Virus record (IMG/VR): IMGVR_UViG_3300031702_000037 | Coordinates: 1 to 29,198 of that record | DNA length: 29,198 bases | Source: a virus | Direction: 5' to 3' (one strand) | Shown here: piece after piece, positions 14,884 through 28,523 of the stretch | How positions within the stretch are numbered: the first letter of the stretch is position 1 | Layout: every line of letters begins with the position of its first letter | Program-made: the position numbers and the translations under genes | Notes under the pieces: model-generated | Told to the model about the DNA's origin: nothing | Seen by the model: the letters and a program-made list of their open reading frames with translations, nothing else | Databases searched by the model: none

Positions 14884-16509
14884 TTAAGAGTCATTTTTAA
14901 TAAGAACGCCTTGGAATGAGGCACCGATTGCTGTATTAGTAGTGTTTGTGGATACCCTACACTCTATGTCAGTTCTTTCAGCGAAAGGCTGTGGATACTC
15001 AAACTTAGTAATTAGCTGGTTGCTTTGAATCACGTTAATGAAACGGGTTCTAAAGACGTTAGTGCCAAAGTCTCTGCTGTGGAAGCTGCAAGTTACAATT
15101 CTGTTTTGTTGCGACACAGCAGCAGTGAAGTTAATGTCGTCTAAATACAAGGTGTGTCCAGCAGGTACTGTATAAGCAGCAATCTGTGTCTGATTACCTT
15201 GGGCTATGGTAGCGTATGTTGTACCGTTAGGTACGCCACCTGACGCTCCAGAAGAGCCAACATAAACTGTGCCACCCGATGTTCCACTAGAACCTGCAAG
15301 AGTTACATAAGCTCTGTAAACACGAAGGTAGGAAAGTTGAGTAGTAACTTGTGTCTGTCCATTAAGCGTAATAGTCTCTTCTATCTCATTGTAGTCTTCA
15401 TCAAGCCCTTGGATAAGAATAGTGTTAGCACCTGTTCCACCGTTTGTGTCATTTGCGCTAGAGCTACTAACAAACATTGTTACTGCGACATCAAGCCAAG
15501 GGTAGTTACCGCCTTGTGACCAGACAGTCTCCTCAGCAGAATCTACATCTGGGTTGTAACCAAACTTGTAGATTGGTGTGTAACCCGTAGTGTGACCTCT
15601 AGCGATAGCCAAGTCTGTATGATCGTATATTCGTCTAGGCCAACCACCAAACATCTGCTGTACCACCTGTTCATATATTACGTTAGGGTCTGTTGCATCT
15701 TCTACATCAGGTCTGCCCGTGAGAATGTTGTCAGCACCAAGATTGTTGTTCTGAGTTATTGGGGTCGGGTTAACCTCTGGTACGCCAGTAAGCGTAGAAT
15801 CTACTGCGATTGACTGAACTTGATCCAGAGTAACTTCTGATATTAAAGGAACACCAGTTATAGTTATTGTGGCATTAAGAACATGTGTCTGAGTTATTGT
15901 AGAGGAAGATATAACAACATCTTCTGTAGATATAGAGACAGAAGATAAATCATGAGACTGTACTGTTGTTGCAGAAGATATTACTACTGGTAAAGCATCT
16001 ATACCTACAGGAGATAAATCATGCGATTGTACTATTGTTGCAGTAGATATTACTACTGGTAAAGCAACTATATCTACAGGAGATAAATCATGCGATTGTA
16101 CTATTGTTGCAGTAGATATTACTACTGGTAAAGCATCTATATCTACAGGAGATAAATCATGAGATTGTACTATTGTTACAGTAGATATTACTGCTGGTAA
16201 AGTCTCTATATCTACAGGAGATAAATCATGCGATTGTACTACTGTTGCAGAAGATATTACTACTGGTAAAGCATCTATACCTACAGGAGATAAATCATGT
16301 GATTGTACTATTGTTGCAGTAGATATTACTGAGGGGGAGGTGTTTATGTTTACAGCAGAAAGGAAAGAAACCTCAGAAAGACCTACGGTAGAAATAGAAG
16401 GTGTTCCAGAGGTAAAAGATACAGACCCTAGAGTGTCTACACCGCCATCGTTAAATAGACCTAGCTTGTTATCAAATAAGCCTACCTGACTATCAAATAC
16501 TCCCGCCAT
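14884..16509 (-). CDS. repeat-containing structural (fibre-like) protein
   Basis: 541 residues. Residues about 60-200 are made of 23-residue tandem repeats with unit PVVISTATIVQSHDLSPV followed by five more residues; more diverged copies continue to about residue 265. The C-terminal 270 residues contain ARGHTTGYTPIYKFGYNPDV, a Ser/Asn/Gly-rich beta part, then GLDEDYNEIEETITLNGQTQ and YTVPAGHTLYLDDINF. This C-terminal part matches a structural protein often found in marine phages, probably a trimeric virion fibre or head-associated fibre. Each repeat would add two strands, so the N-terminal half may be a long beta-stack shaft. The gene lies between portal and protease genes, which points to the head or portal vertex rather than the tail. 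Confidence 0.75.
   Translation of the reverse strand: MAGVFDSQVGLFDNKLGLFNDGGVDTLGSVSFTSGTPSISTVGLSEVSFLSAVNINTSPSVISTATIVQSHDLSPVGIDALPVVISSATVVQSHDLSPVDIETLPAVISTVTIVQSHDLSPVDIDALPVVISTATIVQSHDLSPVDIVALPVVISTATIVQSHDLSPVGIDALPVVISSATTVQSHDLSSVSISTEDVVISSSTITQTHVLNATITITGVPLISEVTLDQVQSIAVDSTLTGVPEVNPTPITQNNNLGADNILTGRPDVEDATDPNVIYEQVVQQMFGGWPRRIYDHTDLAIARGHTTGYTPIYKFGYNPDVDSAEETVWSQGGNYPWLDVAVTMFVSSSSANDTNGGTGANTILIQGLDEDYNEIEETITLNGQTQVTTQLSYLRVYRAYVTLAGSSGTSGGTVYVGSSGASGGVPNGTTYATIAQGNQTQIAAYTVPAGHTLYLDDINFTAAVSQQNRIVTCSFHSRDFGTNVFRTRFINVIQSNQLITKFEYPQPFAERTDIECRVSTNTTNTAIGASFQGVLIKNDS
15944..16357 (-). repeat. six tandem 69-bp repeats inside the fibre-like gene
   Basis: The word GATAAATCATG recurs at 15944, 16013, 16082, 16151, 16220 and 16289, an exact 69-base period. 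Copies differ at only a few bases, most of them in the middle of the unit. Because 69 is 23 codons, gain or loss of units keeps the frame. Such nearly identical DNA repeats are prone to recombination, so the shaft length may vary among relatives. Confidence 0.95.
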
Positions 16510-18250: not shown

Positions 18251-19630
18251 TTACTTCGATAAGCCCTTAGCACTAGAATAAGCGAGGGTTAATTGGGGTT
18301 TAGCGTAGCCGTTAAGAGAAAGGTCTGTAATTGCCCACACCATAGCGTCAAGGCGGTCAGGAGAGCCAATTCGACCTAATGGCTCCCACGTTCTCATCTG
18401 TGTCTCAAGTTCATTCAGTGATGCACCATCAGGAGGATTAGAGACGTGCTTAACAAGCCCCCGTTCATATAATGCTGACACTGGCTCGGCTCTAGCGAAC
18501 TTCCCACGAGAGGCTCTTACAGCCTTGTAGGATACACTATCGTCCTCACCATGAATGGTAGTTCTAACCATGTCACCACCCTGATTGACCTCAGCTACGA
18601 TACGGTCAGCCTGATAGTGGTTATATAGTTGTATAGCTTTAGCTGCCCAACCCTGTGGGGATAGCCTGTCAGTGTAGTCGCCTAATACATAAGCAACACC
18701 GTTAATATCAATACCAGCAACGACAATACCAGTCATGTCACTCTCAGCATTGGAGGTAACAGCTGGATCAAGTGCAACGACAATACGAGATAAGTCAGGA
18801 ACATCCTCATGCTTAACATGAGCATTGTCTAGCATCTCAGTAGACCATAATGCGCCTTCAGCTTCCTCTAGTACCTCAGCATAAAGCTCCTGTCTACCAA
18901 TACGTGTACCCTCGTACTGTTCCTTAACAGCAACAAGGTAGGTATCAGCTAGGTTAGCAGCATTATCAAAGGTAGAACCACTTGTGACAATAGTCTTAGG
19001 GTTCTTGAGTAGCTCACGCATTAGCTTAGTTGGTTTGGGAGTTGTTGTAACGCACACACGAGGGTGCTTACCAAGACGTAGACAGAACTGAAGCATCTGC
19101 CATGTGTCAATATCTTTGTTCCACGCAGCAAGCTCATCACACCATGCAGCGGAGAACTGTGGACCACGTAGACGCTCAGGCTCTTCTGCTGAGTAGAACT
19201 CAACCTTAGCTCCATTAGCCCAGCTTAGTGATCTCTTAGTGGGAGACCACTCAGGAAAGCCCATTGGCTTACCCTTGTTATCTTTATCATGCTTCCAGCA
19301 GACTGATAAGAAACCACTCTCGCCCTTAACCATAACACGTTCAATGTCACTGTTAGTAGAAGCTACACAAGCAATACGCTTATGCCCATTCTTGACTTGC
19401 TGTCGTACCCACTCAGCACCACAACGGGTCTTACCGAAGCCACGACCAGCATTGATTAACCATGTGTTCCACTCATTGTCACTAGGAGGAAACTGTGCGT
19501 CTCTACCCCAGAACGACCAATCATGTTGTAACTCGTCTACCTTAGCTGGTCCTAGCTGAGTGAACAGCTTCTTGACTTTAGCTGGGGGTAACTGTCGGAG
19601 AGTATCAGCCGTTATCTTCCTGTTCGTCAT
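18251..19630 (-). CDS. terL: terminase large subunit
   Basis: 459 residues counted from the ATG at 19630 (a TTG three codons upstream is another possible start; both overlap terS). The ATPase domain has Walker A GRGFGKT (residues 62-68), Walker B AAWCDE (161-166) and the coupling motif VCVTTTPKP (192-200). The nuclease domain shows the acidic triad in order: ALDPAV (Asp288), VAEVNQGG (Glu347) and RLDAMVWA (Asp428). It translocates DNA into the head and cuts it. All key residues look intact. Packaging type (cos, pac or headful) cannot be told. Confidence 0.93.
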   Translation of the reverse strand: MTNRKITADTLRQLPPAKVKKLFTQLGPAKVDELQHDWSFWGRDAQFPPSDNEWNTWLINAGRGFGKTRCGAEWVRQQVKNGHKRIACVASTNSDIERVMVKGESGFLSVCWKHDKDNKGKPMGFPEWSPTKRSLSWANGAKVEFYSAEEPERLRGPQFSAAWCDELAAWNKDIDTWQMLQFCLRLGKHPRVCVTTTPKPTKLMRELLKNPKTIVTSGSTFDNAANLADTYLVAVKEQYEGTRIGRQELYAEVLEEAEGALWSTEMLDNAHVKHEDVPDLSRIVVALDPAVTSNAESDMTGIVVAGIDINGVAYVLGDYTDRLSPQGWAAKAIQLYNHYQADRIVAEVNQGGDMVRTTIHGEDDSVSYKAVRASRGKFARAEPVSALYERGLVKHVSNPPDGASLNELETQMRTWEPLGRIGSPDRLDAMVWAITDLSLNGYAKPQLTLAYSSAKGLSK

Positions 19631-20018
19631 CGAGATCAAATCCTAAGAGGTTCATAAGCTGATCTGCTGCTGAGACATCAAGTTCGGGATCAATCTCTTG
19701 GTCAACTTCGTTAACTGTATTCTGTGGGGACCATCCGCCCTTAGAGCGTAGGAATAACTCTTGGCTCTTCCATGTAATACCATCCTGTACATCACCGTAC
19801 AAGGCTTGGTCAATCACACGTTTACCTACTGCACCACTAATGCGAGTACGTTCAGCTTCTATTGCTGGACCATAGTGCTTATACAGAGTAGACAAGCTCT
19901 TAGGTGCATCGTTCAAGTGCTGAATAGATGTAATGATCTGACGGATGGGGACTCCACCCTGTATCATCTCAATGACAGCTTTCTCAACGAGCTTGCTATA
20001 GGGTAGCTTCTCAAGCAT
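19605..20018 (-). CDS. terS: terminase small subunit
   Basis: 137 residues, helical, starting MLEKLPYSKLVEKAVIEMIQ. Residues about 20-55 form a helix-turn-helix-like region (GVPIRQIITSIQHLNDAPKS, then LSTLYKHYG). The C-terminus is acidic (ELDVSAADQLMNLLGFDLDD), as in TerS tails that bind TerL. It is the first late gene and overlaps terL by 26 bases. The ATG at 20018 has only a weak ribosome site (GAAAG). It should recognise the packaging site, which may lie in or near the unusual leader described below. Confidence 0.75.
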   Translation of the reverse strand: MLEKLPYSKLVEKAVIEMIQGGVPIRQIITSIQHLNDAPKSLSTLYKHYGPAIEAERTRISGAVGKRVIDQALYGDVQDGITWKSQELFLRSKGGWSPQNTVNEVDQEIDPELDVSAADQLMNLLGFDLDDEQEDNG

Positions 20019-20035
20019 GACGACAATCTTTCTGT

Positions 20036-20069
20036 ACTTTATCGATGTAACAGATGTTACAACGGTTCC
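20036..20069. repeat. 34-bp near-copy of the ParB-like gene, with 16-bp near-palindrome
   Basis: Bases 20043-20069 are identical (27/27) to 28043-28069, and the match extends left to 20036/28036 with two mismatches. The core TGTAACAGATGTTACA (20046-20061) has perfect 6-base arms TGTAAC/GTTACA. This copy lies 18 bases upstream of the terS start, inside the late leader. In that leader RNA the sequence is antisense to the ParB-like mRNA. Confidence 0.9.
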
Positions 20070-20256
20070 ATTAACGACAATCTAGATGATAGTCTTAAGA
20101 AGGTAATAAATATTCCCCCCAAGACATCAGCAAGATCACGTCTTACATATGTTTGTGTTGTCAAGGTTCATCTTGGTTGTACTTGGGAGGATCACTGTGT
20201 TATACCTGAGTTAATGCCTCAAGGAATGAACAACAATAAGTAATAATCTATTAGAC

Positions 20257-20332: not shown

Positions 20333-20365
20333 TACTATATAGACCCAAATCGAATTCTCACAAGT
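20333..20365 (-). promoter_or_regulatory. late promoter ahead of terS
   Basis: On the minus strand the block ACTTGTGAGAATT (20365 to 20353) is followed after 3 bases by TTTGGGTCTATATAGTA (20349 to 20333). It matches 27529-27561 on the plus strand at 30 of 33 positions. Read as a sigma-70-type promoter it has TTGTGA, 16 bases, TATATA (or 18 bases, TATAGT). Transcription would begin near 20325 and give a leader of about 300 bases before terS. No other promoter for the 20-kb late operon is evident. Confidence 0.7.
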
Positions 20366-20591
20366 AAATAATTCGTGTTTTACCCAACTATTTTACATGT
20401 CGTTGATAACACACGATTCTTTTTTTGTTATTTTCTGTAGTATTCTGTAACAATTCGTGAGAATTACCCCTGTTGATATGTGGGTGGGTAAGTCAAAAGT
20501 AAATTCTTGTGTTGGATTTAGGGTGTGCTAAGGGCCGCCGCCGAATCACTCACGCATGATCTGGAGGGTCCCAAAATAAAATGTCAAGGGG

Positions 20592-26943: not shown

Positions 26944-27519
26944 ATGGAAAAGACGCAAGTAAAGAAGCTGACCACAGACGAAATAGTAGTCATGTGTGAG
27001 AAGCTGTCACGTAAGTACAGGCGACCCCACATGAATGACGACTTAGTATCAGAGGGTGTTCTGGCTGTCTATGAGCGGCTAGAGACTACACCTGACGAAT
27101 ATCCAGCCAGTCTGTACCGTAGAGCTAACAAGGCCATGTATGACTATATTAACGTAAAGACAAAGGCTGTCACTATTCCTTCGTCTAGGTCAGCTACAGA
27201 GGTGGCATTGGGCAATGAGTACACAGGTCAGAACTACTCGGAGGAGGGCAAGAGAGTTCTTGATGTCGCTTTGAAGTCTACAACAGTGGAGTTTGATGAG
27301 GAGTTCATGGGTACAGTGGAGGACTGTACAGCTAGTTATGAACGAAAGGACTACATAGAAAAGGGACTAAAGAACTTAAACGACAAAGAAAAGGATGTGA
27401 TTAACATGCGATACTTTAAAGACATGACACAGGATGAAGTATCAGTGTTTTATGGGGTTAGACAACAGGCTGTAGCCCTTTGGGAGGATGAGGCATTGTA
27501 TAAAATGTCTAAAGTGTAA
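26944..27519 (+). CDS. sigma-70-like RNA polymerase sigma factor
   Basis: 191 residues. Region 2-like part: NDDLVSEGVLAVYERLE (residues 31-47), YRRANKAMYDYINVKTKAVT (58-77), then IPSS, which fits sigma regions 2.2 to 3.0. Residues about 85-130 are a spacer. Region 4-like helix-turn-helix: LNDKEKDVINMRYFKDMTQD (145-164) then EVSVFYGVRQQAVALWEDEA (165-184). This matches the 'L-x-x-x-E-x-x-V-(L/I)-x-x-R-(Y/F)' and the recognition helix of sigma factors. It lacks region 1. It would redirect host RNA polymerase to phage promoters; the 33-bp promoter starts 10 bases after its stop codon. Confidence 0.75.
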   Translation: MEKTQVKKLTTDEIVVMCEKLSRKYRRPHMNDDLVSEGVLAVYERLETTPDEYPASLYRRANKAMYDYINVKTKAVTIPSSRSATEVALGNEYTGQNYSEEGKRVLDVALKSTTVEFDEEFMGTVEDCTASYERKDYIEKGLKNLNDKEKDVINMRYFKDMTQDEVSVFYGVRQQAVALWEDEALYKMSKV

Positions 27520-27529
27520 CAATTCGTGA
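27515..27529 (+). repeat. third copy of TGTAACAATTCGTGA
   Basis: Exact 15-mer shared with 20446-20460 and 20614-20628. Here it overlaps the last codons of the sigma-like gene and abuts the promoter block. Three exact copies, all on the plus strand and all in or beside intergenic DNA, suggest a binding site for a phage or host regulator. Confidence 0.65.
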
Positions 27530-27561
27530 CTTGTGAGAATTAAGTTTGGGTCTATATAGTA
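27529..27561 (+). promoter_or_regulatory. promoter of the ParB-like gene block, twin of the late promoter
   Basis: ACTTGTGAGAATT (27529-27541), three variable bases, then TTTGGGTCTATATAGTA (27545-27561). It reads as TTGTGA, 16 bases, TATATA. The same block stands before terS on the other strand. Both lie in non-coding DNA at the right distance for transcription of the gene downstream (leader here about 85 bases). Confidence 0.7.
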
Positions 27562-27593
27562 AGATGTACCTTGTAAGTTTTCTTACACAAGTT

Positions 27594-27650: not shown

Positions 27651-28523
27651 ATGGATGATAATGAATACTTGGCAAGTATGTTGCCAGATAAACCAGAATG
27701 GCAGTACCATGAGATTTGTTTATGGTCACCATTCATAGAAAGCACTGTAGGTAAGATAGCCAAGAATATGGAAGATGGCGGGTTTGACAGAAAACATGCC
27801 ATACTTATCTACGAAGGTAAGATTCTTGATGGTCGTCATAGATATTTAGCTGCGGTTAAGGCTGGTGTTGATCCAATCTTTACTGAGTTCCAAGGCACCC
27901 GTGAGGAAGCTGTCAAAGAGGTTACCAAGGAGCAGGTAAATCGTGGTCATTGGAGTGAGGAAGCTAAGAATTTCTTCTACGCTCAACGTTCCACTGCCTT
28001 GGGTGTTCGTAAACGAGAGGACAGTTTAAAGCAAAACTCTACCGATGTAACAGATGTTACAACGGTTCCGTCCCAAGAAGACCACGCTGATGCTCTTGGG
28101 GTCAGTCGAATGACAGTCAACCGATGGGAGAAAGACCGAAAGGAGATCATGGCAGACCCTGAGTTAGCAGCCAAAGCTACAACACCAGAAGGCTACAAAG
28201 AGGCTAAGGAGGTCGTAAAGGACAGACGACAAAAACAAAAGGAGGCTATTAACAAGACTGTCGCCCCCACTGTGGTTGATCTTAATGCCATAGCTAGGGA
28301 CAAAAAAGAGACTGACATACGTAGCGTTGGCCCAGCGTTTGTAGGACTAATGGAGACACTGTGTACAAAGTTTGACGAAAAGGACATCAAAAGAGAGCTT
28401 TTAGCTTTCATGTACCCTGACCCACTAGGGTTAAAGACCGAAGCCTTACACAAGATGTCAGACATACTTAATGACCTACGTGAAGACTTTTCTGCCGAAA
28501 CCACTAAACAGCAACTAAACTAA
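27651..28523 (+). CDS. ParB-like DNA-binding protein
   Basis: 290 residues. The N-terminal ParB/sulfiredoxin-like domain is marked by KILDGRHRYLAAVKAGVDPI (residues 57-76), containing the DGRHR box. A helix-turn-helix follows at about 143-162 (DHADALGVSRMTVNRWEKDR). The C-terminal third is helical and charged and may dimerise. Such proteins bind palindromic sites and some hydrolyse CTP. In phages they serve in regulation, replication or genome segregation. AAGG lies upstream of ATG. Codons 132-140 contain the palindrome TGTAACAGATGTTACA, also found before terS. It is the first gene after the 33-bp promoter, so it is probably controlled with late genes. Confidence 0.75.
   Translation: MDDNEYLASMLPDKPEWQYHEICLWSPFIESTVGKIAKNMEDGGFDRKHAILIYEGKILDGRHRYLAAVKAGVDPIFTEFQGTREEAVKEVTKEQVNRGHWSEEAKNFFYAQRSTALGVRKREDSLKQNSTDVTDVTTVPSQEDHADALGVSRMTVNRWEKDRKEIMADPELAAKATTPEGYKEAKEVVKDRRQKQKEAINKTVAPTVVDLNAIARDKKETDIRSVGPAFVGLMETLCTKFDEKDIKRELLAFMYPDPLGLKTEALHKMSDILNDLREDFSAETTKQQLN
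28036..28069. repeat. copy of the terS-leader repeat inside the ParB-like gene
   Basis: Near-identical to 20036-20069 (32/34; 27 in a row). The palindrome core is at 28046-28061. It encodes part of TDVTDVTTVP between the ParB-like domain and the helix-turn-helix. A ParB-like protein binding in its own gene would resemble parS sites placed close to parB, though the bases differ from the usual bacterial parS. Confidence 0.9.

Follow-up and report, generated by a model that had tools for sequence, protein, structure and literature searches.

A palindrome shared by a phage ParB-like gene and the terS leader is a probable hypervariable operator

The window, that is, the whole 29,198-nt stretch of viral DNA analysed here, contains a 27-bp repeat, one copy of which lies in a ParB-like gene and the other in the leader of the small terminase gene (terS). 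It is proposed that the palindrome in this repeat is a hypervariable operator, which the ParB-like gene carries for its own protein and which was copied from the gene into the terS leader. Judging from the comparison of sequences among relatives, the probability of this explanation as a whole is put at about 80%.

The Repeat and Its Palindromic Core

Bases 20043–20069 and 28043–28069 of the window are identical at 27/27 positions, and the match extends to 32/34 over 20036–20069 and 28036–28069, so that direct comparison confirmed the exact match and the extension claimed in an earlier, sequence-only reading of this DNA. The two copies are spaced exactly 8000 bp from start to start, and about 5e-8 exact 27-mer pairs would be expected by chance at this window size. 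The 16-bp core, described earlier as a near-palindrome, turned out to be a perfect 7-bp inverted repeat (TGTAACA and TGTTACA) around the 2-bp centre GA. Exact copies of the core occur only twice in the window. The first is the predicted in-gene operator TGTAACAGATGTTACA at 28046–28061, a perfect 7-2-7 palindrome in codons 132–137 of the ParB-like gene; the second is the predicted operator at 20046–20061 in the terS leader. The 27-bp unit inside the ParB-like gene (28043–28069) is the probable source, and the unit in the terS leader (20043–20069) would be the copy, consisting of the operator with its coding flanks. The flanks of the in-gene unit, ACCGA..ACGGTTCC, can be regarded as coding flanks, since they are also present in the ParB-like genes of two other contigs (L014 and L056). 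A search of the viral collection for the inner 21 bp of the repeat gave two occurrences only, both on IMGVR_UViG_3300031629_000035, a 33.9-kb contig that is near-identical to the window; as both copies recur there, the repeat is not an assembly accident.

The ParB-like Gene and Its Protein

The ParB-like gene (27651–28523, plus strand) encodes a protein of 290 aa, which is composed of a ParB/Noc-type N-terminal domain, a variable linker, a helix-turn-helix (HTH) and a C-terminal part, and it is preceded by a sigma-factor-like gene (26944–27519). The PHROG match of the gene is a ParB-like partition protein (E 0.004). Sequence search of the PDB gave weak matches only, so structure comparison was needed to recognise the fold: the top Foldseek match of the protein model was Spo0J (1vz0, E ~1e-4), followed by ParB and Noc structures, and the TM-scores of the whole model were modest (0.2–0.4). 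Pfam HTH_3 was matched above the cut-off at residues 141–166, and the alignment shows an ILDGRHR motif like that of box II and ENVARRHL-like motifs. That is to say, the window protein has the ParB-fold N-domain followed by an HTH that is found in proteins of the ParB/Noc/KorB type. The recognition-helix codons (SRMTVNRW) are located at 28104–28127 on the plus strand, and the in-gene palindrome lies upstream in the variable linker, some 50 nt from these codons and some 14 codons from the HTH helix.

Palindromes at the Same Place in Related Genes

Among the ParB-like genes of closely related phages, 22 of 24 encode a palindrome at the same place, with arms that are wholly different. Most of these palindromes are 16 bp long and have the form T-N5-A-RA-T-N5'-A; the arms include TGTAACA, TGTATCA, TGTAGTA, TGTGACA, TATGCAA, TCCACAA, TCCCTCA, TCCGACA, TCCGAAA and TGCAGTA, plus a CGCCA type with 5-bp perfect arms. 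In far relatives (other phages and bacteria), the palindromes at the same place can reach 28 bp or more, and in most genes the palindrome is situated 10–17 codons upstream of the HTH. The mean best arm of the far relatives is 7.7, compared with 4.9 in synonymous shuffles of the same genes, and arms of at least 9 were found in 17/64 far genes as against 1/235 control windows taken from those genes. In the related phages as well as in the far relatives, the two arms change together. A few far entries of the automatic extraction were spurious, the palindrome being distant from the HTH or the HTH match being false, and these were left out of the tree, the prediction and the unique-combination tests. 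In three far relatives (L082, L095 and L104), the ParB-HTH unit is fused to MT-A70 or N6_N4 DNA methyltransferases, and the in-gene site may also direct methylation there.

Correspondence Between Palindrome Bases and Recognition-Helix Residues

For this comparison, the palindrome bases were numbered outward from the axis (pos1–8) and the helix residues were numbered after 'GV/NV' (p1–p8). The mutual information between the recognition helix and the palindrome is concentrated in the pairs p3-pos4/5, p6-pos6, p7-pos3 and p2-pos7 (z ~16, 20, 16 and 6, respectively), while it is mostly low for the protein positions flanking the helix. First of all, Arg at p7 pairs with C (or T) at pos3, and other residues at p7 mostly pair with A; when p7 Arg is tabulated against C/T at pos3, the counts are 35/0/0/56, with 0 exceptions in 91 genes. 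Arg or Lys at p3 pairs with G at pos5, the genes with Glu at p3 (L017 and L059) being exceptions to the p3/pos5 rule, and at pos4, Arg at p3 goes mostly with C and Asp with G. At pos6, G is found with Arg or Lys at p6, T with Ala, and C with Gln, Glu or Thr. Arg at p2 pairs with G at pos7, which is the same as the contact between R173 and guanine 1 in the ParB-parS crystal structure, where Noc has a glutamine–adenine contact instead (PMC7383237).

The helices of L014 (HRDTVARW) and L063 (HRDTVTRW) differ only at p6, where Ala is changed to Thr, and the single difference between the palindromes of these two genes, TGTAGTA and TGCAGTA, is the change of T to C at pos6. In the N-domain tree, which is weakly supported and poorly resolved, all 15 inferred changes of p7 and of pos3 coincide, sharing one set of 15 branches; its well-supported branches allow three independent p7/pos3 pairs, and these are concordant in 3/3 cases. 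The coincidence on branches alone could reflect linkage, as the linker, palindrome and HTH can move as one cassette. However, the rules derived from the 69 far genes alone were correct for 12/14, 8/10, 12/13, 8/10 and 8/11 classes when applied to the close phage group, and this prediction from far to near, together with the position-by-position code, argues against cassette linkage alone.

Based on the co-varying arms, the helix code, the far-to-near prediction and the R173–guanine contact, it is nearly certain that the palindrome is the specific binding site of the ParB-like protein itself, a parS-like operator carried within the gene, and the 7-2-7 palindromes that co-vary with the helix would be the 16-bp cognate sites expected of a protein of the ParB/Noc/KorB type. 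The proposal made at the outset that the ParB-like protein has an operator both at terS and within the gene that encodes it is thus strongly supported by the co-variation of arms and helix and by the parS geometry.

The terS Leader and the Proposed Regulation

The small terminase candidate terS (19605–20018, minus strand) is the first gene of the late operon, has homologues from more than 80 contigs, and stands upstream of terL in the cultured relative CRP-6; in the window, the large terminase gene terL is located at 18251–19639 on the minus strand (Pfam Terminase_6N/6C). terS starts at 20018, and the leader palindrome ends 27 nt upstream of it. Promoter-like elements of one sequence class precede both genes, at 20333–20373 (minus strand) in the terS leader and at 27521–27561 (plus strand) before the ParB-like gene, and together they make up inverted repeat I1 (85% over 41 nt; 27/30). 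In each close genome with both genes, the two share such an element (23–27/30, best in the window), which is near-identical within a genome and different between genomes (window, L008, L014, L056, L020 and L271). CRP-6, which lacks the ParB-like gene, has a similar element pair by eye, after the gene at the same place; therefore, the sigma-like protein (26944–27519 in the window) may be what reads the element. An extra site in the promoter of the ParB-like gene was also sought, and the sole candidate, at 27572, has 3 mismatches and is not convincing.

In the proposed mechanism, the ParB-like gene and terS are started from one class of phage promoter, and a site follows each of the two promoters; as the ParB-like protein accumulates, it would bind there or be loaded there in the form of a clamp. 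In this way, the bound protein would limit its own synthesis and delay or damp the late operon for packaging and structural proteins, while the site and the helix that reads it would constitute one short exchangeable cassette of hypervariable specificity. The comparison of sequences shows the copies, the co-varying arms, the correspondence of bases and residues, several independent leader copies with flanks from the gene, the empty leaders and the common promoter element; from these we infer the binding itself, repression as its outcome, any CTP clamp behaviour and the mechanism of copying. Repression of the late genes and of its own gene is the likeliest role of the protein, with odds somewhat better than even. 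The main rival is a role in packaging or segregation, in which a ParB-type DNA clamp would load at the sites and so mark the phage genome, similar to parS or pac. The ParB/Noc fold, the 16-bp parS geometry and the position of the site directly upstream of terS, near the terminase genes, speak for it. However, terS leaders without such a palindrome are common, no parA was recognised among the ORFs examined (part of those of the incomplete window), and each site is in transcribed DNA and follows a promoter of the shared class, which suits control of expression, so this role is considered a possible but unlikely one.

Between the promoter and terS, a strongly conserved, structured leader element is found at about 20060–20240 on the minus strand, with the arrangement CCCAAG..CAACCAAGATGAACCTT..GACGTGATCTTGCTGATG..CTTGGGG, and it is also present in the leaders of L028–L042 and L271. 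This element may function as a regulatory RNA or in packaging, as a site, and no Rfam family was found anywhere in the window. A plus-strand open frame at 20007–20244 has no start codon and was set aside because it overlies the element.

Probable Copying From the Gene Into the Leader

The leader palindromes of the ParB-gene type are TGTAACA in the window, TATGCAA in L030, TGTATCA in L034 and TACACCA in L031–33; their symmetry is kept perfect while their sequence changes, and their flanks are those of the ParB coding sequence, the leader of the window having 27 bp in common with its own gene. The leader of L030 equals the gene of L023, which comes from a different sample, over about 31 bp, and in the leader of L008, 34 bp identical to part of its own gene are inserted next to an older TACACCA palindrome. 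The leader of L250 shares 28 bp with the gene of L063, both coming from the same metagenome sample, a pairing by sample that is circumstantial. In L016, the own site with 7-bp flanks lies upstream of a small gene preceding terS, and its centre is inverted relative to the flanks. In other relatives, the slot in the leader is empty of any palindrome (L035 and L039–L042) or holds another hairpin (L028, L029 and L038). It is therefore highly likely that the leader copy was made from the gene together with 5–10 bp of coding flank, and such copying appears to have taken place repeatedly and in either orientation, the receiving leaders being empty in relatives. Flanks of this kind, carried along from the coding sequence, also explain better why the match runs beyond the palindrome, which the sequence-only reading had taken as favouring RNA pairing.

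Of the six contigs holding both genes, three (window, L008 and L016) have a match to their own site at the head of the late operon. In the other three close contigs, L014, L056 and L020, no second copy was found near terS, and hence the leader site is dispensable for the basic job of the protein. In CRP-6, the cultured relative, a terS homologue with a leader of the same kind is present, yet both the ParB-like gene and the palindrome are missing. Among the approximately 90 loci fetched, second copies of the palindrome were found in the window, L008 and L016, plus one ambiguous case, the far ParB-like gene L166. In L166, the site is CTGCAA..TTGCAG, with a second match about 370 bp upstream (positions 2610 and 2978). 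In L038, L043–L046 and L050–L054, the slot directly before terS is also occupied by other short hairpins, whose loops are GTA/TAC or GATA and which vary between phages (GGAGC-TAC-GCTCC, GTGAT-GTA-ATCAC, GCCC-GTA-GGGC).

A rival reading is a one-off recombination scar between the two loci, functionless in the leader, and the flanks do point to copying from the gene. Such a scar is improbable, however, because the late operon acquired a copy at its head on several occasions, with the position and the orientation differing from case to case, half of the contigs with both genes have the match to their own site, and the leader palindromes remain perfect as their sequence changes. Even less credible is a selfish mobile palindrome like the Rickettsia palindromic element, lying in-frame in ParB-like genes and landed in the leader. 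The in-frame location, the high variability and the insertion-like presence and absence among leaders are what such an element would give, but base-by-base co-variation with the neighbouring recognition-helix codons is unexpected for it, and so is the fixed distance to the HTH. A mobile palindrome would also be expected in many genes, whereas the exact own site occurs once in each of three far phage records (46–81 kb) and once in a bacterial genome of 5.9 Mb (with one further 2-mismatch site), and exactly two copies occur in the whole 50-kb record of L016; dispersed copies independent of the specificity of the host gene, as in the RPE/REP type, were not seen. The least probable reading, which had been offered at the outset as the second explanation, is that the ParB-like mRNA is shut off by pairing with the RNA of the terS leader over 27–34 nt: the window and L030 (versus L023) do have the leader copy in antisense orientation to the gene, and the match runs past the palindrome, but the leader copies of L008, L016 and L250 are sense-oriented, so that the leader RNA could not pair there, the centre in L016 is inverted relative to its flanks, the far genomes carry the in-gene copy only, and the variation among relatives falls on the palindrome, symmetrically and in step with the HTH helix, and not on a 34-base pairing region.

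Relation to Known Systems

The site of ParB (parS) and that of Noc (NBS) are 16-bp palindromes with 7-bp half-sites and a 2-bp centre, and the ParB-like proteins described here resemble both systems in their fold and in this geometry. They also resemble ParB-parS in having Arg at the position equivalent to R173 together with G at the equivalent base. They differ from both in that the site lies inside the gene of the protein itself, adjoining the HTH codons; moreover, it is usually present as one copy, and its sequence is hypervariable among close relatives. For parS, the length of 16 bp and the consensus TGTTNCACGTGAAACA have been reported (PMC7022226). A binding site inside the gene of the ParB protein itself is known from B. 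subtilis, in which parS-359 lies within parB (spo0J) (PMC4442127); unlike the sites described here, it is one of about 10 conserved parS, is not hypervariable, and has no general tie to the HTH codons. KorB of plasmid RK2 is a ParB-family clamp that silences transcription from 16-bp operators, OB (PMC11790492). KorB-OB is the closest functional model for the proposed role of the window protein, with the difference that the OB sites are silencers acting on promoters with KorA as partner; the passages of that source consulted here describe no in-gene hypervariable site for KorB. A survey of the ParB-CTPase fold likewise deals with phage-encoded ParB-fold proteins, and palindromes are absent from its main text (PMC12704722). 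In the literature searched, outside which most subscription papers lie, no description of in-gene palindromes or operators in ParB-like genes was found, and an in-gene site as a regular, hypervariable and helix-matched part of orphan ParB-like genes appears to be undescribed, as does the recognition code.

Protein–DNA specificity is not easily deduced from sequence, since the site bound by an orphan regulator is usually unknown; here, each gene names its own site. The approximately 90 natural protein–site pairs, with 76 distinct helix/site combinations, can therefore serve as a resource, from which a recognition code for ParB-type HTHs can be read and predictions can be made directly for many orphan ParB-like proteins of phages and bacteria. 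The in-gene site would also represent a route by which a regulator can switch specificity while its operator is retained, and by which a phage recruits the late operon to a new specificity through copying of the site. More speculatively, and with rather long odds, such genes may be widespread self-addressed regulators with a hypervariable operator beside the HTH codons, which in phages would act as an identity code. If the regulators are self-addressed, one recombination event would switch the specificity of the protein and its address together; if the site is an identity code, the protein would bind only DNA with an identical allele (the genome of its own phage, sister copies or a superinfecting phage of the same type), and copying of the site to the terS leader would subject the late genes to the code.

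As a separate feature of the window, a tandem repeat with a 69-bp period and six overlapping copies is present at 15813–16364, inside an ORF at 14884–16509 on the minus strand.
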